In this document: positions 2,520 through 49,400 of the stretch, in pieces | Layout of the letters: the number at the start of each line of letters is the position of its first letter | Position numbering within the stretch: the stretch's first letter is position 1 | Made by a program: the position numbers and the translations under genes | NCBI GenBank assembly: GCA_032622095.1 | Contig: CP136061.1 | Location: 89,336,983-89,400,982 of the forward strand | Source of the DNA: Siphonodentalium dalli | Taxonomy: Eukaryota > Mollusca > Scaphopoda > Gadilida > Siphonodentaliidae | Length of the DNA: 64,000 nt | Reading direction: 5' to 3' | The notes under the pieces: generated by a model | Databases searched by the model: none | Told to the model about the DNA's origin: nothing | Seen by the model: only the letters and a program-made list of their open reading frames with translations

Positions 2520-2598
2520 GTTTATTTTTGATTGGCGACTTGTTCTGGTGCTCACTGTTATTCAGAGAGGTTTCACGAAATCAGTAGACATCATTTAA

Positions 2599-2821
2599 CC
2601 CTTTCATGAGGTTCCTGATGGGAGCTGCGCTTGTGCAGCATTAACAATCCTGTGCTAGTGCATTCTCTTAGATATGCGAGTCTCCCATTGGGAGCCTCAC
2701 ATATATAAGAAAATGCACTGGCTCACAATATCAAAGTAAATATTGTTAGGCCAATGTATTCTCTTATATATGCGATAGGGTTTTCGTAAAAAAATTCCAG
2801 AAAGCTCCAGTCATGAAAGGG
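2599..2821. mobile_element. TTAA MITE, CCCTTTCATGA family, with double-hairpin cassette
   Basis: TTAA at 2595-2598 and 2822-2825; ends CCCTTTCATGA / TCATGAAAGGG. Inside lie GCTGCGC..GTGCAGC, then the first hairpin (CTTAGATATGCGAG...ATATATAAG), then AATATTGTTAGGCCAATG and a truncated second hairpin. It is probably in the TULP4-like 3' UTR or just beyond. The CCC start and TTAA target suggest a piggyBac-like element. Confidence 0.85.
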
Positions 2822-3368
2822 TTAACAGATTATTAATGAATAGGCACAAATTACATTTTTCCACATATTGAAAAACAACTTTATTGGTTTGCTCTCCTGT
2901 GAAATATGTTGGCTAAGATGGTAGTAATAATATTAATAAGGTCATTAAAGACATACTATATGGACATGCTCGTCACTATGCCAACTGGGAGAATGTAGAA
3001 TTCTACTAAAATCGCCAAAAATTTCTAAGAAATTTACCATACCACTCCATAGAAAACATCATCTGAACTGCGCTGAATTGTAAATATTTACATCTCGATT
3101 CAGCGATAAACTAAGACAAATAATTTTGCCATCGAGCGTGATTGCATTTAATTAATATAAAAAGTAACGCTGTGTGCTGTCAATTTGGATTAATTTATTC
3201 ATAAAAAATAACTACTTTGAGCCACATTATTCTCAATTTCTATTTGATCACCCCACCGGAGTGTTTCACATCACTTTAAAAATAAATGTCTGTGTTCTCA
3301 TGCTATGTATCCAGAGAAATTGTTATGGTTTAGTAAGAGTAAGAAAAACAGCATGATGAGAAGACTTA
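2822..3368. other. Intergenic AT-rich DNA
   Basis: No coding signal or recognisable repeat. The stretch may include the end of the TULP4-like transcript; the only AATAAA I noticed is near 3283. Confidence 0.35.
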
Positions 3369-6440: not shown

Positions 6441-7514
6441 CCAGAGATAGCTGATGCAGAGGTGTAGTGCCCCAGAAAAAATTAAATATAAAATTAAATA
6501 TCATGCACCCGCATGGTTTTCAACACATTTTGGCCTGAGAAATGAGAGATTGACTTTGCATGGCCAAAGGGTGGGTATTTACTATTACTGCTTAAAATTT
6601 TGTAAAATAAATAATAGCTCTATATGCACATGGTACTGAAATTTTCAGTGATAAAATCTTCAAATTACTCACAAATTACACACATAATTTCTGTATTGAT
6701 CCCTATTCTAGTTAATAAATCATTATAAATGAGTTTATATTCATACTCACATATACATTAAATAGTAAGTTGTGATTCCTATGTTACATATCAAACTTTT
6801 ATGAAATACCGTGGGTTTAACAAAGTAAGTTACATTGGGAATTGGAATTTTTTACATGATCCGACTCCTTATTCCATTAATTAAACCTATTTTGTAATAA
6901 TGATATACAATGGTCATTGTATAACAGGAAATAGTGCCAGGTGTAAACAAATGTATTATTATTGCATAACCGTTGACTTCCGGCTTGTCGTCTATTTACA
7001 TTCTGTATGCTAAATTGATGTTTGTGACTATTTTTTATTTAGTTTGAACAGATATTTCATAAATATGTCAGAATCTTATTTATCTGGTACTATTTTTTAT
7101 GCTGGCAAACAATCCATAGTTGCGTGAAACGTCATAGCAGGCCTTATAGAAGTCGCTGTTAGTTTCAGGTTGCATTTATTGATTTAAGTATGTTTTATGG
7201 AGGTTTTGGATCAAGTAATAAATAGATAAAGGCTCAGTCGAGACCTTTTTACTGGACTTGTTTTGTAAATTTCGCTATCAACTGAGGACTCATAGATCCT
7301 TTAATTGTGTAATACTACAGACAAATTCATATTCTGTAGTTGAATTTTGTCAAATGTGTTTAAATTCTAACTTTTGAAACGAGTTTGAATTTGTAACAAT
7401 ATAAGTTATATCCTGCAACATCATGGGGTACATGAAGATTTGATTTGGCGTTATTCACTTCTTTCCAGACGATGTGCAGATGTTTTTGTATGACTCAAAT
7501 TGATTCTTCGTTAA
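6441..7514. other. Intergenic, nothing recognised
   Basis: AT-rich sequence with no ORF, hairpin or family match that I can support. Confidence 0.35.
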
Positions 7515-7762
7515 CCCTTCCATGACTGGAGCTTCCTGAACTTTTGTGAAAACCCTGTGCCAATGCATTCTATTATATATAGCGAGCCTCGCATGTATAA
7601 GAGAATACTTTGGACTAACAATATTTACCATGACCTTGTTAGCCAGTGCATTATCTTATATATGCGAGGCTCCCTATGTGAGACTAGCATATATACCAGT
7701 AAGAGAATGCACTGGCACAGGATCTTTAATGCTGCACCAGCGCAGCTCCCATCATGAAAGTG
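7515..7762. mobile_element. TTAA MITE, CCCTTCCATGA family, double hairpin
   Basis: TTAA at 7511-7514 and 7763-7766. Contains GAAAACCCTGTGCCAATGC, one hairpin (partly lost), TAACAATATTTACC, a second hairpin and GGATCTTTAATGCTGCACCA. Orientation is opposite to the copy at 2599. Confidence 0.8.
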
Positions 7763-7766
7763 TTAA

Positions 7767-12626: not shown

Positions 12627-12630
12627 TTAA

Positions 12631-13005
12631 CCCTTTACCCAACAAACCGGCCAAATAAAGCTGCAACAGCCTAAATTATCTTGGGTCTGTCTCAATAAAA
12701 CCATACAAATATGGATATCATTGGAACCGGCTCCTTGACCACATTGTGATGGTTATAGTTATGCCCTGTGCCAATGCATTCTCTTATATATGCGAGTCGA
12801 CCATAGGTCGCCTCGCATATATAAGAGAATGCATTGGCCTAAACTGACACTTTTTACCATTTTTTCTTACGGTACATTCTTCAACAATTTTATAATTTTT
12901 AATGTGTTAAGCCAATGCATTCTCTTATATATGCGAGGCGACCTATGGTTGACTCGCATATATAAGAGAATGCATTGGCACAGGGCCGTTCTGTTGGGTA
13001 AAGGG
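12631..13005. mobile_element. TTAA MITE, CCCTTTACCCAACA family, copy 1
   Basis: TTAA at 12627-12630 and 13006-13009; ends CCCTTTACCCAACA / TGTTGGGTAAAGGG. One arm carries AACCGGCCAAATAAAGC and GGAACCGGCTCC. The other two-thirds is the double-hairpin cassette (CCCTGTGCCAATGC...GCATTGGCACAGGG) with GTCGACC/GGTCG-type tips. A second copy in reverse orientation lies at 45544. Confidence 0.88.
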
Positions 13006-13009
13006 TTAA

Positions 13010-13331
13010 AGGGGTACTGTACACTAAATCTGGCCATTTATGTGACCATCTCCCTTTATACTCAACAGAATATATGTAACAATTGAATTAATTTGAGCCA
13101 TGGATTAATGCAAAAAACACTTGTGTGCTATATGAACGATGCAAACAACATGGTAATGGTAATGTAAATTCATTTTAATTATAAATACCATGTTGTTTGC
13201 GTTATTCATAGAGCACACAAGTGTATTTTGTACTAATCCATGGCTCACATTCATTCATTAGTTGCATATATTCTGTAGAGTATAAAGGGAGATGGTCCCA
13301 TAAGTGGCTGGATTTAGTGTACAGTCCCCCA
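13010..13331. mobile_element. TTAA MITE, GGGGTACTGTACAC family
   Basis: It shares the TTAA at 13006-13009 with its left neighbour and has TTAA at 13332-13335. Ends AGGGGTACTGTACACTAAATC and GATTTAGTGTACAGTCCCCCA. Long inverted arms (CCATCTCCCTTTATACTC; ACACTTGTGTGCTATAT.AA; AACAACATGGTA), spacer about 30 bp. No ORF. Confidence 0.83.
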
Positions 13332-13457
13332 TTAATATTTCCTACTACTCATCAATGAGTATTTAGTATAGAATGCGTTAATCAGAGTTATGACCCTCAG
13401 AGGGTGAATACGTTCATCCCTGTATATCCGTCATCTTAGATATGAGATAAAGGCTAT

Positions 13458-14009
13458 CCACATGCTAAGAGGTTTTATCCGTCATTGCACGCCAGATTAA
13501 GACGCCTTTTGAATTAATTGAAAATGATTAAACCTTTCATGATGGGAGCTGCGCTGGTGCAGCATTAAAGACCCTGTGCCAGTGCATTCTCTTATATATG
13601 CGAGTCTCCCATTGGGAGCCTCGCATATATAAGATAATGCACTGGCTTACAAGATCAAGGTAAATAGAGGATCTCACATGAGTTTCTATTTTATACGGAA
13701 TTTATCAACCGAGTTCACTAAATTCGATTTGAGCCACATGCTAAGAGGTTTTATCCGTCATTGCACGCCAGATTAAGACGCCTTTTGAATTAATTGAAAA
13801 TGATTAAACCTTTCATGATGGGAGCTGCGCTGGTGCAGCATTAAAGACCCTGTGCCAGTGCATTCTCTTATATATGCGAGTCTCCCATTGGGAGCCTCGC
13901 ATATATAAGAGAATGCACTGGCTTACAAGATCAAGGTAAATAGAGGATCTCACATGAGTTTCTATTTTATACGGAATTTATCAACCGAGTTCACTAAATT
14001 CGATTTGAG
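13458..14009. repeat. 276-bp tandem segmental duplication
   Basis: 13458-13733 is repeated as 13734-14009; I see one mismatch (AAGATAATGC vs AAGAGAATGC). The unit spans a unique flank, the left end of a TTAA MITE, one hairpin and part of a nested element. It therefore arose after those insertions, by slippage or unequal exchange. Confidence 0.9.
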
Positions 14010-14790: not shown

Positions 14791-14915
14791 ATTTTAGGCC
14801 AATATAAAACAAATTGCTGGATTTACAAGATTCCCCTCCCGATCTTATTTTTAGTCCACTTCTCACTTTTTTTAATTTGGATAATTTTTATGTAAATTTT
14901 GTTCTCATGCCTTAA

Positions 14916-15368
14916 CCCTTTCAGTGCCAGGTCCGATTTTTGTATCAACCCATATACCCTGTGCCAATGCATTCTCTTACATATGCGAGTCGACCATAGG
15001 TCGCCTCGCATATATAAGAGAATGCATTGGCCTAACAATTTTTCATCATTTGTTATTATTTTTTACAATTTTTTACAATTTTAATAATTTTTCTTATATT
15101 CTTTAATAGACTTATTTTGTAGGTTTAGTGCCAGGGAATCTTACGTTTTTCATGGGCATCAAAATTATTACTATGAATACTTGGTGATAGTTTTGAGTTA
15201 TAACATGCCCCTAAGGTTTTATCCAGTTTGTTTTTAAATTTGCTATAGCATGCTTAAACATACCCAAAAAAATTGAACCCAAAAAAAATCTAAAAACAAA
15301 TAATTTTAGGGCCGATTTTACAGACCGTAAATTAGGGCCAATGAGATCGGCCCCTGGCACTGAAAGGG
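14916..15368. mobile_element. TTAA MITE, CCCTTTCAGTGCCA family, copy 1
   Basis: TTAA at 14912-14915 and 15369-15372; ends CCCTTTCAGTGCCA / TGGCACTGAAAGGG. The left half holds one cassette hairpin after ATATACCCTGTGCCAATGC. The right half is a conserved unique segment (GTGCCAGGGAATCTTACG, GGGCCGATTTTACAGACCG). Confidence 0.87.
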
Positions 15369-15372
15369 TTAA

Positions 15373-18885: not shown

Positions 18886-19032
18886 AAGGTGTGCTACTCA
18901 GGTGTACCCGTTAAGGTGTGCTACTCAGGTGTACCCATTAAGGTGTGCTACTCAGGTGTACCCATTAACCCCAAATAATCATAAGGTGTACTACTCACCC
19001 ATTAAGGTGTGCTACTCAGGTGTACCTGTTAA
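18886..19032. repeat. 27-bp minisatellite (AAGGTGTGCTACTCAGGTGT)
   Basis: Units begin at 18886, 18913 and 18940, then degenerate units follow. It continues at 19488-19518 on the far side of a TTAA MITE, whose TTAA target is supplied by the array's own ...GTTAAGG unit junction. Confidence 0.8.
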
Positions 19033-19487
19033 CCCTTTCAGTGCCAAGTCCGATTTTTGTATCAACCCATATACCCTGTGCCAATGCATTCTCTTATATA
19101 TGCGAGTCGACCATAGGTCGCCTCGCATATATAAGAGAATGCATTGGCCTAAAACATTTTCATCATTTGTTATTATTTTTTACAATTTTTTACAATTTTA
19201 ATAATTTTTTCTTATATTCTACTCTCTTTCATTGCCAGACTTATTTTGTAGGTTTAGTGCCAGGGAATCTTACATTTTTCATGGGCAGCAAAATTATTAC
19301 TATGAATACTTGGTGATAGTTTTAAGTTATAACATGCCCCTAAGGTTTTTACCAGTTTGTTTTTAAATTCGCTATAGCATGCTTAAGCATACCCAAAAAT
19401 AATTCAACCCAAAATTTTATTTTTTTAGGGCCGATTTTACAGACCGTAAATTAGGGCCGATGAGATCGGCCCCTGGCACTGAAAGGG
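19033..19487. mobile_element. TTAA MITE, CCCTTTCAGTGCCA family, copy 2
   Basis: TTAA at 19029-19032 and 19488-19491. Nearly the same as 14916-15368 along its length, including one complete cassette hairpin. Inserted in the 27-bp array. Confidence 0.88.
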
Positions 19488-19614
19488 TTAAGGTGTGCTA
19501 CTCAGGTGTACCCGTTAACCCCATTTAATCGTAAGGCCATGCAAAGTTTCTTTCCAAAAGGCCTGCACACATGGTCTCAAAACCTGCATGTGCATCCTTT
19601 TTATTCACGTTTAA

Positions 19615-19868
19615 CCATTTCATGATGGGATCTGCGCTGGTGAAACATTAAATATCCTGTGCCAGTACATTCTCATATATGTGATTCTCCCATAGGGAGC
19701 CTTGTATATATAAGAGAATGCACTGGCTTACAAGGTCAAGGTAAATGTTGTTAGTCCAATATATTCTCTTATATATGTGCGGCTCCCTATGGGAGACTCG
19801 CATATATAAGAGTATGCATTGGCACAGGGTTTTTTGCAAAATTTCAGTAAATTCCAATCATGGAGGGG
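19615..19868. mobile_element. TTAA MITE, CATGA family, double hairpin
   Basis: TTAA at 19611-19614 and 19869-19872. Complete double-hairpin layout with spacer TTACAAGGTCAAGGTAAATG and right end GGGTTTTTTGCAAAATTTCA. Confidence 0.85.
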
Positions 19869-20082
19869 TTAATATGCTGAGGAAAATGTTAATCTGTATG
19901 AAATTATTATGGTACATTTTTTTGGAAACAAGCATGGGAGTGAGATTAAACAGTCGCGTTTTCCAGTTCAGATTTCTGGGATATTACTGTAATTGGTTCA
20001 AACACAGCCCTGTTAATTAGCAGCAATGTGCCTAGGCCAGAAATTGTTCTTCGGCTTAAAAGCTTAGGATCCGCATAGTATA

Positions 20083-20673: not shown

Positions 20674-21304
20674 CCCTTTTATGACTGGAGCAGCGAAAAC
20701 CCTGTGCCAATGCATTCTATTATATATATCCATAGAGCGCCTCGCATATATAAGAGAATGCATTGGCTTAACAATATTTACCTTGATATTGTAAGCCAGT
20801 GCATACTCTTATATATGCAAGGCTCCCTATGGGAGACTCCCATATATAAGAGAATGCACTAGCACAGGGTCTTTAACCCTTTTAGTTCCAAGTCCGATTT
20901 TTGTATCAACCCATATACCCTGTGCCAATGCATTCTCTTATATATGCGAGTCTACAATTTTTTACAATTTTAATAAATTTTTCTTATATTCTACTCTCTT
21001 TCATTGCCAGACTTATTTTGTAGGTTTAGTGCCAGGGAATCTTACGTTTTTCATGGGCATCAAAATTATTACTATGAATACTTGGTGATAGTTTTGAGTT
21101 ATAACATGCCCCTAAGGTTTTATCCAGTTTGTTTTTAATTTCGCTATAGCATGCTTAAGCATACCCAAAAAAAATTCAACCCAAAAAAATCTAAAACTAT
21201 TTTTTTAGGGCCGATTTTACAGACCGTAAATTAGGGCCGATGAGATCGGCCCCTGGCACTGAAAGGGTTAATACTGCACCAGCGCAGCTCCCATCATGAA
21301 AGGG
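20674..21304. mobile_element. TTAA MITE (CATGA family), host of a nested element
   Basis: Left end CCCTTTTATGACTGGAGC (TTAA decayed to TTCA); right TTAA at 21305-21308. Double hairpins are present. Its own GTCTTTAATGCTGCACC segment is split at TTAA by the element at 20877. Confidence 0.82.
20877..21267. mobile_element. TTAA MITE, CCCTTT(C)AGT family, copy 3, nested
   Basis: TTAA at 20873-20876 and 21268-21271. Same right-half sequence as 14916 and 19033, with the cassette reduced to half a hairpin. Inserted into another TTAA MITE. Confidence 0.87.
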
Positions 21305-43400: not shown

Positions 43401-46400
43401 ATATTGTTAGGCCAATGTATTCTCTAATATATGTGAAGCTCCCTATGGGAGACTCACATATATAAGAGAATGCATTGGCACAAGGTTTTCGCAAAATTAA
43501 TTATCGGGCGGAACTTGTCTGAATATGGTATCTTAATTATCAGGTAAGGCATACCTAAATCTACTGGCATCCAACGGTCTATAAGATTAATCAAGCATTC
43601 TAGTTAGGCCTAAATGGGTCCATAACGATCAACAAGCGTTGAAATAGTGTGTCTGTCATTTTGCAGAATGAGGTCCCCAGAGAATGAATTTAGTGACACT
43701 ACCCCGCATAGCGGGCTAGCATCACCAAATTCACCCTCTGGGGACCTCATTCTGCTTAGGCCTTAGCAGAATGAGGTTCCCAGAGGGTGAATTTGGTGAT
43801 GCTAGCCCGCTCTGCGGGATAGCATCACTAAAATCACCCTCTGGGAACCTCATTCTGCAAATGACAGGCTCACTATTTCAAGGCTTGACTATCAACATGA
43901 TCTTCACAAGGTTCTTTCCCTTAATATCATATCGGAGGTGATCGGTATGCCTTGTACATGTATATTATCATTAGGAGAAAGTATTGTTAACATTTTATCA
44001 TTATTATTTTATTATTAAGTCAGTATTAACATCACAATTAAGTTAGAACATAGAGAAATAGATAAACTTTGTTCCTATATTCATTATTAACCCTTTCAGT
44101 GCCAAGCCGATTTTTATATTAACCCATATTTCCTTGATCATTTTTCAAATTTATTGTTATAATAATGTGATACATTGATGGAAAGAGCTCTTAGTGCTCT
44201 TTCCATCAATGTATCACATTATTTTAATCAATAAATTTGAAAAATGATCAAGGAAATATGGGTTGATACAAAAATTGGACTTGGCACTGAAAGGGTTAAT
44301 AGTTCTCCAATAACCAAATTTTGCATGCTGAAACCAAAAGCCAAAGTTTAAAAATAATTTCTGGGTTTTCAAGTAATTTCCAGGATCACTGAAAAAAACA
44401 TCAAATTTTACCAGGATTGTCAAGAACATAGAATTAACTAATGTTTTAATTTAACCCTTCCATGACTGGAGCTTCCTTAAATTTAGCGAAAACCCTGTGC
44501 CAATGAATTCTCTTATATATGCGAGTCTACCATAGGTTGCCTTGCATATATAAGAGAATGCATTGGCCTAGCAAATTTTATATTATTTTTTATAATTGTT
44601 AAAGAATGTAAGAAAAAAAGAAAAAATTATAAAAAATTGGTAAAGAATGTAAATAAAAATGAAAAAAAATGATAAAAATTGTTAAAGAATGGAAGAAAAA
44701 TTGATAAAAAATTGTTAGACTAATGCATTCACTTATATATGCGAGGATCACTATGGGAGACCCACATATATAAGAGAATGCACTGTCACAGGGTCTTTAA
44801 TGCTGCACCAGCGCAGCTCCCGTCTTTAAAGGGTTAAAGTAGTTTCCAGTTTTTAAGATTGCCGAACACTGAAACTAATTTACTGACTACTGATTGGCAA
44901 GCCTGCAAATAGTGTGTCTGTTATTTGCAGAATGAGGTCCCCAGAGGGTGAATTTAGAGATGCTACCCCGCATAGCGGGCTAGCATCACCAAATTCACCC
45001 TCTGGGGACCTCATTCTGCTGGGAAGTATCTATAAGTCTCAAATTAACAATGTTTTTAGTTCTGGGAAGTTTCTATATCCCATAATTTGCAGAAGATAAA
45101 ATGCATATAAACGAGGTAACTAATGGGTATATAAACATCACCAACTTCAACTGGGGATCTTCAATCTGATCATTGGTCTTCCATAGCATATGAGGTCTAA
45201 GCAGAATGAGGTTCCCAAGGTGAATTTGGTGATGCTAGCAAGCCATGCAGGATAGCGTCACTAAATTCACCCTCTGGGGACCTCATTCTGCAAATGACAG
45301 ACACACTATTTGCAGGCTTGGCCACAAATGAGTTGACTTACAGCAGCATTGGAGAGTCCCTTGCTGTAACCCAGATTACACTTCCTTACAGAGCAGCCGA
45401 TTTGGGGAAGTAAATACTTCGTTATAGCAGTTAACATCTTCGCTTCAAGAAAGACCTGTAGATAGTCAAAATGTCATGTAGGAAGCACATAGTGAAACCA
45501 CAAAATAAACATGCAACATGTTGATAATTGGAGGCTTGTTTAACCCTTTACCCAACAGAAGGGCCCTGTGCCAATGCATTCTCTTATATATGCGAGTCGA
45601 CCATAGGTCGCCTCGCATATATAAGAGAATGCATTGGCTTAACACATTAAAAATTATAAAATTGTTAAAGAATGTAAGAAAAAATGGTAAAAAGTGTTAA
45701 AAAACAGATTTTTTTTAGGCCAATGCATTCTCTTATATATGCGAGGCGACCTATGGTCGACTCGCATATATAAGAGAATGCATTGGCACAGGGCATAACT
45801 GTAACTATCACAATGTGGTCAAGGAGCCGGTTCCAATGATATCCATATTTGTATGGTTCTATTGAGACAGACCGAAGATATTTTAGGCTGTTGAAGCTTT
45901 ATTTGGCCGGTTGTGGCCGGTTTGTTGGGTAAAGGGTTAAAGATAGATTATCTTTTTAAATAACAATTTTGAAATAGTTTCGTGGGTATAAAATAGTAAA
46001 TATGAATTGAAGACCCATGTCCGGAAACTCTTCAATTAATATTGATTTTATTTCGAATATTTTATTATAAAATGTGATGATTAAGTGGAACACTTTATTG
46101 TTCTATTTTTAGAACAGACCATTCAGGCGATACCATATAGCAATAGAGATCATTAGGGTGTTCCATAGCTATGCTCTGAATGTCAAATGTCCCAGATTGA
46201 TTGTTTGTATTGTTTTATTACATAGTTATAAGCGATAGTGAGTTTAATTAACGTTTATTTGTGACAAAGCTACACAATACAATTTCTGGACTCTGTTAAC
46301 AGTAACCACTATTTCGTTAGCTAAACAACCACTTGTTTCTAGATGAGAAAGTACTCAAAATATAATCAATATTAAATGATAGACGCATTTCCGAACAGGG

Positions 46401-49400
46401 GTCTTCGATTCATATCTAATATTTTATACCTCGGTAACAATATAACACATGTTTACAAAGAGATAGACCTTTTTTAACACTTAAGCTAAGCTTTTGTCAT
46501 ACTATCTCTGCCTACCTCGATGTAAGATTTATTTGATGTATCAGCTAATTTGTGCTATCACACCTCTACACGTAACAAAAGAACATATATAAATAAACAT
46601 ACCATATGTCCAGATTGGTATGATCCCATAGGGAGCCTCACATATACAAGAGAATGTATTGGCCAAATAATATTTACCTTGACCTTGTAAGCCACTGGCA
46701 TTCTCTTATATATGCGAGGCTCCCTATGGGAGACTCGCATATATAAGAGAATGCACTGGCACATGATCTTTAATGCTGCACCAGCGCAGTTCTCGTAATG
46801 AAATGTGACCCGCCAATGCATGTACCAATGCATTCTCTTATATATGCGAGTCGACCATTGGTCGCCTCGCATATATAAGAGAATGCATTGGCCTAACAAT
46901 TTTTTATCATTTTTTTTAAATAAATGTTTCTTACAATTTTTAGGACATAAAATAAAAAACATCCATTACCCTGCAGGGAGCCCCACACATATATAGAAGC
47001 ATATAGAAGAGTGTCGTCTGCTCATGTTTGTCTGGGGCTCTGTATGGGTGAAATTATAAAATTGTTAAAGAATACAAAGAACAAGAAACAAGGGGTATGC
47101 ATCTAAGATGCTTTTGTCGAGTTTTTTGGCAGTCCAACCAAACTTCTGCCAATAAGGTGCACAACTTCGGGGAAAAAAGTCGGACGGTGGTATATTATTG
47201 CAATAGACCTATATACCAAATATCAATTGAATCTGTTAATATTTCATTGAGTTATCGCACTAACAGTGATAAAATTGTTATTAAAATAGACAAACTAAGA
47301 CCCATAACTCCGGAAAAAGAATTCGGACAAACCAGGTTTTTGAACTCGTCCGAGATATTGTTGCAAGAGACTCATATACCAAATATTGTTTAAATCGGTT
47401 AATATTTCATTGAGTTATCGCGCTAACGGTGATAACATTGCTAAAAATAGACAAACTAAGACCCATAACTCCGCGAAAAACATTTGGACAAACCTGGTTT
47501 TCGAAATCGTCCGAGATATTGTTGCAAGAGACTCATATACCGAATATTGTTTAAATCAGTTAATATTTCATCGAGTTATCGCGCTAATGGTGATAAAATT
47601 GCTAAAAAATAGACAAACTAAGACCCATAACTCCGCGAAAAACATTTGAACAAACCTGGTTTTAGAACTCGTCCGAGATATTGTTGCAGCAGACTCATAT
47701 ACCAAATATTATTGTAATCAGTTAATATTTCGTCGAGTTATCGCGCTATCAGTGACAAAATTGCTAAAAATAGACAAACTAAGGCCCATAACTCCGCAAA
47801 ACAAATTTGGACAAACCTGGTTTTCGAACTCATCCGAGATATTGTTGCAGGGGACTCATATACCAAATATTGTTGAAATCGATTAATATTTCATCGAGTT
47901 ATCGCGCTATCGGTGATAAAATTGCTAAAAATAGACAAACTACGGCCCATAACTCCGCGAAAAAAATTTGGACAAACCTGGTTTTCGAACTCGTCCGAGA
48001 TATTGTTGCAGGAGACTCATATACCAAATATTGTTTAAATCGGTTAATATTTCATCGAGTTATCACGCTATCGGTGATAAAATTGCTAAAAATAGACAAA
48101 CTAAGGCCCATAACTCCGCGAAAATAATTCGGACAAACCTGTTTTTCGAACTCGTCCGAGATATTGTTGCAAGAGTCTCATATACCAAATATTGTTGAAA
48201 TTGGTTAATATTTGCGTGAGTTATCGCGCTATCGGTGAAAAACTTAACTAAAAACCATCTAAGATGGATAACTCTTGTAAAAAAGTTTTGACGTGACCCA
48301 TTTTCTACAGGCAGTAAATAGTCATTGGGAGCAACTGCCATACCAAATTTGTTTTGAATCCGTTCACAAATGTCAAAGTTATAAGGCATTCTTTAGGTCC
48401 GCCTGCCCGCCGCCCGCCCGCCCGCCAACCGTCCCTCGCCAAACCATAAGTCGAGTTTTTGAAAAACTCGACTAAAAATTATTAAAATTGTAAAAAATTG
48501 TTAGTCCAATGCATTCTCTTATATATGCGATGCGACCTATGGTCGACTCGCATCAATAAGAGAATGCATTGGCACAGGGTAAAAAAATCCCGACTTACGA
48601 CTGGATTTGATATGGCGGGTCACAAATAGTTAAGCTGCTCCCTGTGCTAAGATTGATCAAACATCTTGGAACAGTGACCCACATCAAATAATATTTTATG
48701 CGAGAGAGGATCTTACCCGAGTAAATTCAGAATTTTGTTCATCAGCTGTAGCCTTGTACGATTCATCGATATCAGCGTCGTCGTCCAGCATGGAATATTT
48801 GTTGTCACTCTGCTGTGATAGTTCCTCCTCGTCCACATCCTGGTAAACAAACGTCCAGTTACCTGGAAAAAAAGATAAATATGTTAAAGGGGTGTTTATA
48901 CGAATCCACTGAATTGTGTGTTGGAACGTTGCGTTGAAATTGGAATATAGGCAACACGACTAAGGCATTCAGGTGTCGTGTCCAAATATGATGCAGAATG
49001 TGGTCCCCAGAGGGTGAAGTTAGTGATACAACCCGACACAGAGGGCTAAAATCACCAAATTCATCCTCATTCTACTTAGACCTCATCTTTTGGAAAGTAT
49101 CTATAGTCTCAAATTAACATTTTAATACGGGAGACTTGCATATATAGGAGAATTGACTGGCACAGGATCTTTATTGCTGCACCAGCACAGCTCCCATCAT
49201 GGATCTAACAAACCAAATTCATCAACAAACTATGTCACCGGATGTAGACGATGATGGTCTACAAAAGATATAGATACATTACCTTTAGCCCACTGCAAAG
49301 GCTGGAGTTCTGCCCAGAGTGACCCATCGAATGCAACCTTGTTGATCCAGTGCGACACCTGTCCACATCGGAGTAGGTCTCTCGGAGACAGATGAGAGAA

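Follow-up and report, generated by a model that had tools for sequence, protein, structure and literature searches.

The same double-hairpin cassette recurs across a 64,000-nucleotide stretch of Siphonodentalium dalli DNA (hereafter termed the window), within MITEs that end in different sequences. The question raised by this locus is how one core comes to lie between different ends. A preliminary description, made from the sequence of the window alone, proposed either a mobile element that parasitizes other MITEs or a functional part swapped between families, and named gradual divergence of the ends from one ancestor as the alternative. Here, these readings are weighed using the copies in the window and loci fetched from the rest of the genome.

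Results

Architecture and Abundance of the Module

The module consists of CCCTGT, a 69-bp hairpin, an AT-rich spacer, a mirror-image hairpin and ACAGGG, and spans 222 bp in the C-type copy at 12627-13009 (Table 1). Each hairpin is near-perfect, with a 33-pair stem that contains one T-C mismatch and a 3-base loop, and the 80-bp module arms are 98-99% complementary. Folding as DNA gave -36.1 kcal/mol for hairpin 1 (z = -14.3 against shuffles) and -32.5 kcal/mol for hairpin 2 (z = -13.8). The whole arrangement, CCCTGTGCCAATGC-hairpin-spacer-mirror hairpin-GCATTGGCACAGGG, was present in the C copies with edges at 12627-13009 and 45540-45940, which are one element in opposite orientations. The complete module had already been placed in these two elements (listed at 12631 and 45544) and its own ends, CCCTGTG and CACAGGG, recognized as inverted repeats, and both observations were confirmed.

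A 14-base module end has 168,556 exact occurrences in the 2.23-Gb genome (nine contigs), with 0 for the reversed control. In the window, this 14-mer was found 31 times at up to three mismatches, against 3.8 expected and a maximum of 9 in 100 shuffles, and a 12-mer of the hairpin arm was found 58 times at up to two mismatches, against 5.7 expected. The 69-position hairpin consensus is identical across the B, C and D families described below, and A-type cores differ from these three in having another loop, a mostly different spacer and a few changed stem pairs. The consensus C spacer holds TTCTTTAACAATTTT, the TTAA of which is a landing site for inserts in other copies; the spacer of the copy at 12627-13009 reads TTCTTCAACAATTTT at this place. 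A search of Rfam returned 34 matches at E ≤0.1 (loci L080, L085 and L012), none of which reached the gathering score of its family; all were to microRNA-precursor models and are read as generic long-hairpin matches. A 26-base hairpin arm gave 0 matches in viral_contigs.

Table 1. Copies of the module and related elements in the window
Feature	Position	Strand	Remark
Complete C-type MITE (TTAACCCTTTACCCAACA ... TGTTGGGTAAAGGGTTAA), 383 bp with both TTAA	12627-13009	+	Edges checked
Two-hairpin core (CCCTGTG ... CACAGGG)	12764-12985	+	
Hairpin 1, 69 bp, 33-pair stem, one T-C mismatch, loop ATA	12770-12838	+	
AT-rich spacer	12839-12910	.	
Hairpin 2, mirror image of hairpin 1	12911-12979	-	
Second complete C-type MITE, core 45564-45793	45540-45940	-	Edges including TTAA checked
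A-type MITE (TTAACCCTTTCATGA ...), diverged core, three arms found	2595-2825	+	
A-type MITE	7511-7766	+	
A-type MITE	19611-19872	+	
A-type MITE; long AT-rich spacer like B/C/D, intermediate loop	44451-44837	-	
B-type composite (TTAACCCTTTCAGTGCCA ends), single (left) hairpin, no mirror hairpin	14912-15372	+	
B-type composite, single (left) hairpin, no mirror hairpin	19029-19491	+	
B-type element in TTAA 3 bases outside core of A-type element	20873-21271	+	
B-type ends with different palindromic core, no cassette	44087-44299	+	
D-type fragment: one hairpin joined to 11 bases of D end	46805-46892	+	
D-type fragment: right hairpin and complete 44-bp D end	48505-48623	-	

Several features of the surrounding DNA were recorded in addition. 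An inverted repeat with 164-bp arms, 85% complementary and 2 bp apart, adjoins the C element (window 13006-13335), and a direct duplication with copies ∼276 bp apart takes in the left half of an A-type element (window 13500-13900). Evenly spaced copies at C1:735-780 kb, C1:820-921 kb, C1:94.237-94.292 Mb and C9:156.333-156.376 Mb suggest tandem arrays containing these MITEs, with units of ∼14.6, 11.2, 7.9 and 8.5 kb. The L011/L016 and L012/L015 loci share flanks in opposite orientation, and the regions concerned (C1:1.79-1.83 Mb and C1:3.55-3.59 Mb) are a probable inverted segmental duplication.

Four Unrelated Sets of Ends

The core was found between four unrelated sets of ends, three of them associated with TTAA (piggyBac-type; A, B and C) and one not (D). 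The A end is characterized by CATGA and TTAACCCTTTCATGA, with unequal inner flanks; the B end by CAGTGCCA, in elements that read TTAACCCTTTCAGTGCCA...CCCATATA; the C end by ACCCAACA and TTAACCCTTTACCCAACA, with flanks that measure 147 bases, counting TTAA, on one side and 24 bases on the opposite side; and the D end by GTGACCCGCC, with GTGACCCGCCATATCAAATCCAGTCGTAAGTCGGGATTTTTTTA on both sides. Genome-wide counts of exact end matches covered B, C and D and gave 21,866, 91,648 and 20,014, respectively; A ends were seen in the window and in fetched loci. Complete copies of A, B and C have TTAA at both ends, some copies carrying mutated ends, and the CCCTTT present in all three agrees with the terminal CC[C/T]T motif as defined in PMC2872659.

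All four sets of ends reported in the preliminary description are thus real, and its details required revision at two places. In the B copies at 14916 and 19033, described as carrying the double hairpin, the left hairpin alone was found and the mirror hairpin is absent. The element at 46805 does join a hairpin to the D end, as a fragment with 11 bases of that end and one hairpin; complete D elements are present elsewhere in the genome, among the fetched loci.

Ten bases, TTAACCCTTT, are common to the A, B and C ends, as might be expected had one ancestral element diverged gradually, its ends faster than its core. Beyond TTAACCCTTT, however, between-family alignments of the ends were about as good as those of shuffles (13 comparisons, 500 shuffles each). 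The best score, for B-D, was reached by 21 of the 500 shuffles, followed by B-C_R (95) and C_L-D (96), with higher numbers for the rest, such that at least 95 shuffles reached the score in 12 of the 13 comparisons. The two ends of A resemble each other, as do the two ends of C. In addition, B ends were also found on a quite different palindromic core starting TTTCCTTGATC, both in the window (44087-44299) and at L061, L064, L065, L068, L070 and L071, and ends and cores are therefore separate units. Gradual divergence from one ancestor is consequently considered highly improbable.

The D ends differ further in their flanks. Among 17 D end pairs (four duplicates dropped), TTAA flanked none, 11 had identical 4-base A/T flanks (ATAT in 10) and 6 had no match. 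Given the lack of TTAA at its edges and the mostly matching A/T flanks of 4 bases, D looks like a member of another superfamily than the TTAA elements. In one D-type element (L052, C1:4495900-4497800), the hairpin loop holds ∼1.2 kb with GC-rich inverted repeats, including an ORF (652-1080) of 142 amino acids that matches Pfam Bcl-2 (E = 9e-11); judged by this similarity, the MITE appears to have captured a gene for an apoptosis regulator. The spacing of D ends suggests a sister of this element near C1:4549552.

Search for Independent Movement of the Module

The inverted ends of the cassette would suit a MITE of another superfamily that had inserted into older MITEs, as would the TA present to either side of the core in D and in our reconstruction of the B arrangement. 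Against such mobility, free copies were absent from a sample of 171 hairpins that were exactly 69 bp long and had an outer flank: 167 lay in the A-D families, and the remaining four look truncated, damaged or nested. This sample allowed up to 8 mismatches per arm, leaving badly damaged copies uncounted, and five overlapping or duplicate loci were dropped beforehand; it was fetched largely via hairpin and end patterns, and its proportions are not those of the genome. Modules preceded by C or T, an unusual flank for A-D, occur at 1,045 places, and the 20 that were read comprised 16 C, 2 A and 2 D-type cores, the last two having no recognizable D end.

Empty sites were sought with joined-host patterns, which depend on an exact match to the outer sequence and would overlook empty copies that have diverged. 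These gave 7 matches for C, the 5 followed up all containing leftover module letters at the joint, one place for D, again with module letters, and 0 matches for B, and no clear empty site was recognized. With regard to two of the checks proposed beforehand, the search for empty sites thus yielded none that was clear for C, D or B, and copies outside TTAA elements included those of the D family, with no clear free cassette in the sampled loci.

Particular modes of movement were also considered and rejected. A cassette bringing its own TTAA is poorly accommodated by the rarity of TTAA before the core: TTAACCCTGTGCCAATGCATTC, a 22-mer, was found at 328 places as against 168,556 for the 14-mer, the longer pattern being not strictly comparable, and the 328 include D copies in which TTAA terminates the T-run (e.g. 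C1:37115464/37115490). A TA target fits the two sides of the core in D, but the flanks in A and C are neither TA nor TTAA. In the IS200/605 group, both hairpins are read on the same strand. A single-strand reading of that kind was set aside, the two hairpins here being inverted relative to each other.

Loci chosen by other routes were inspected for arms of the module. Ten random 10-kb stretches contained four arm groups, of which one belonged to C, one to D and one to a damaged A-like copy, the fourth being a weak single arm. At loci picked by their ends, at least two arms were present in 23 of 23 C loci and in 15 of 15 D loci (L089 duplicating L088). D ends without the usual following C occur at 102 places, and among 16 of these that were read, 15 continued into the module and the last into a version of it with a deletion. 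B loci, picked by element length, had the core in 9 of 19 cases, with two duplicate pairs (L067/L069 and L072/L073) among the nine.

In summary, no target-site duplications of its own, clear empty sites or free copies were found for the cassette in these samples and with these exact patterns, and there is therefore no sign that the module moves alone. A cassette that is itself mobile, whether or not as a parasite of MITEs, is judged quite improbable.

Nested Insertions and the Assembly of New Combinations

Several joints between elements were preserved. The B element at 20873-21271 is bounded by a duplicated TTAA, and its flanks rejoin into A sequence. At L058, the spacer of a C element is interrupted at its TTAA by a 2.0-kb insert, which has TTAA at either side, flanks that rejoin and ends that match weakly (18 of 24 bases). 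At L056, a D element lies inside the hairpin of an A element. A different type of joint was observed at L072 and L073, duplicates of one insertion, in which a B element ending GGCACTGAAAGAGTTAA is followed directly by core spacer, one hairpin and a second B end; 38 of 40 spacer bases at this junction match the D spacer. The inner end is degraded or missing from the other hairpin-bearing B copies. The B/spacer junction of the L072/L073 type has 237 exact occurrences, the 100 matches listed falling on four contigs, and the B composite has therefore moved as a unit. Taken together, the nested insertions and this amplified fossil junction show that new end-core combinations are made by nested insertion. 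As an amplified composite, the route was seen in B only; the founding events of C and D are not visible.

In comparisons with block-shuffled sequence, the spacers of B, C, D and the A copy at 44451-44837 proved to be related when aligned in one orientation (score reached by 0 or 1 of 500 shuffles); with the A copy, alignment in the opposite orientation likewise scored highly (1, 10 and 25 of 500), which can happen with AT-rich sequence. We presume that the spacer travelled with the core.

Nested insertions alone could explain the composites, and a handful of captures would suffice. B elements, moreover, multiply both with and without the core. The cassette may then be a neutral passenger, captured a few times by chance and common because its hosts are common. 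That a fourth family, which lacks TTAA, has the same core speaks against a passenger of this kind, as do the patterns of variation in the hairpins presented below.

Variation within the Hairpins

Copies found via hairpin patterns exaggerate hairpin conservation and were not used in the variation test. Instead, C and D copies were chosen by their ends, by their presence in the window or by random region, never by the hairpin. The sample comprised 25 C copies from 24 loci and, from 13 loci, the 10 D copies that passed filters on length and interior; 22 of the C copies came from the first 6.2 Mb of contig C1 and all of the D copies from its first 12.5 Mb.

Variants shared by at least two copies, which are those that have spread, were depleted in the hairpins. 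In C, 3 of 150 hairpin columns held such variants versus 21 of 214 columns in the rest of the element (P = 0.002), and in D the corresponding values were 0 of 150 versus 11 of 266 (P = 0.009); these results were unchanged when one of each pair with similar 10-base flanks was dropped. Private mutations occurred in C at 0.0073 per site in the hairpins versus 0.0125 elsewhere (P = 0.02), and in D at 0.0191 versus 0.0207 (P = 0.8). With CpG and homopolymer columns removed, the depletion of shared variants persisted in C (2 of 134 versus 14 of 161, P = 0.008) and weakened in D (0 of 134 versus 5 of 183, P = 0.08), and private mutations were at 0.0066 versus 0.0136 in C (P = 0.005) and 0.0191 versus 0.0171 in D. 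The lower number of mutations contributes to the depletion in the C hairpins, and gene conversion, noise in the spacer alignment or lower mutability could be its cause. Since private mutations are present and shared variants are depleted, the hairpins do mutate, but mutated hairpins have seldom founded new copies in this modest sample. For the neutral passenger, this shortage of spreading variants despite new mutations is difficult to accommodate.

The stems were compared in the 126 of 139 hairpins that were 69 bp long with a recognized outer end, badly damaged copies being uncounted. Pair 30/40 was G-C in 108 hairpins and T-A in 9, pair 31/39 was A-T in 115 and C-G in 10, and pair 5/65 was A-T in 116 and G-C in 4. 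The larger differences between families are thus two-sided, and one-sided changes are scattered along the stem. That several between-family changes in the stem are two-sided is a further argument against a neutral passenger, which we regard as possible but rather doubtful.

The two-sided differences that separate A from B/C/D at three stem pairs would also arise if the palindromes were kept by copying and not by function, one arm serving to correct the other through template switching or gene conversion, and the rarity of private mutations in the C hairpins points in the same direction. Arm-to-arm correction should, however, have removed the T-C mismatch at 28/42, which was kept in 124 of the 126 hairpins, and private mutations in D are as common in the hairpins as elsewhere. 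Maintenance by copying is therefore regarded as unlikely.

The proposal of a functional part swapped between families is supported in part, in that the same core is present in TTAA and non-TTAA families, spreading variants are depleted in the hairpins and stem changes are two-sided; the function itself is putative.

Candidate Transposases

A total of 128 matches to piggyBac-type transposases (PF13843) was found in the genome, some loci being in two pieces. TTAA end pairs were absent from 3.6-kb pieces around the transposases; longer pieces recovered both sides of one family and one side of two others. The family with both sides has TTAACCCTTT ends on each, and its two copies are 99.0% identical over 3.4 kb and contain no cassette. 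The piggyBac-type elements located at C4:107436796-107440213 (L040/L129) and C3:298385364-298388776 (L043/L130), 3.4 kb long with ends TTAACCCTTTATCTGCTAT and ORFs of 593-594 amino acids, are 99.0% identical to each other and have probably been active recently.

Among 17 fetched loci with a piggyBac domain (3.6 kb each, the ends often lying outside), none was an autonomous partner bearing the ends specific to A, B, C or D, and the specific subterminal sequence of A-C was not seen. A search of the same loci for the hairpin arm at up to 8 mismatches gave nothing convincing, with one match, at 8 mismatches, in L041.

Discussion

We judge it somewhat probable that the cassette is the core of non-autonomous cut-and-paste MITEs, which acquires new ends by nested insertion and whose palindromes are kept for transposition. 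On this model, the cassette would not be a transposon of its own and would be carried as a fixed part of several MITE families with different ends that probably employ different transposases. A MITE would insert into or beside the core of another, the next jump would use the new pair of outer ends, and the composite would then be amplified. Copies with broken palindromes would transpose less well, and the palindromes would be kept in consequence.

The paired cysteine-rich domains of the piggyBac and piggyBat transposases bind palindromes near the transposon ends (PMC11707139). By analogy, the simplest cause in A, B and C may be that a piggyBac-type transposase binds the hairpin with its pair of cysteine-rich domains. 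The elements described here resemble those of piggyBac and piggyBat in having palindromes near the tips, and the piggyBac palindrome is placed asymmetrically from the two tips. The palindromes described there are ∼14-19 bp, in contrast to the 69-bp hairpins of the present module, which begin ∼26 to 150 bases from the tips and for which binding is putative. Given that D lacks TTAA, one transposase cannot explain all four families, and for D a different factor or a structural effect is assumed, unless a factor is common to both superfamilies. B elements without the core have also multiplied, and the core is thus not needed in the B family. The best-supported interpretation is nevertheless that the core would be needed by, or profitable to, transposition of the MITEs, a putative benefit.

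A broader reading treats the double hairpin as a cis-acting module that can be exchanged between MITEs and makes them more successful under any transposase, TTAA-type or not. The hairpin might bind a host factor, or a cruciform might aid excision, replication-coupled gain or escape from silencing, and families acquiring the double hairpin would then explode in number. This broader reading is put forward tentatively and is thought unlikely.

The closest precedent in the literature searched is provided by the CMITE families of Acropora corals (PMC2872659). CMITEs are described there as TTAA families with different TIRs and an internal region more conserved than the ends; piggyBac-like transposases are present in the genome, CMITEs occur in tandem arrays, and a new element, CMITE-IN, was made when one element inserted into the TTAA of another. 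Different TIRs around a conserved core, piggyBac-type transposases, tandem arrays and an element made by TTAA insertion are thus shared with the present case. The CMITE core, by contrast, is ∼75 bp and present in ∼1,600 copies by the authors' estimate, whereas the core described here consists of two 69-bp palindromes with more than 168,000 copies of the module end, and one of its families, type D, is non-TTAA. The 60-base consensus printed in PMC2872659 had no clear similarity to the elements described here, the best score being reached by 17 of 300 shuffles. A second parallel is the V domain of MER6 and SINEs, which, according to PMC6887750, is a conserved domain in unrelated element families and once lies inside a MITE, as is the case here; the V domain derives from SINEs, which are RNA-copied, whereas the present core was seen in DNA-type elements only.

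The kind of arrangement is therefore already known from CMITE, and no description of this particular cassette was found in the literature searched. Relative to CMITE, the novelty lies in a core built of palindromes, in far more copies, in a carrier family that lacks TTAA, in joints where recombination can be seen and in the test of variation.

The present case bears on the means by which MITEs attain copy numbers in the tens of thousands and on the origin of their families. Within this one genome, MITEs can be compared for the influence of a core on their success, the C and D copies sampled by their ends always having the core and B occurring with and without it. If the hairpins are indeed functional across transposase superfamilies, they would represent a kind of cis-element without description in the literature searched. 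The fossils of nested insertion, for their part, display a concrete way in which new MITE families get assembled.
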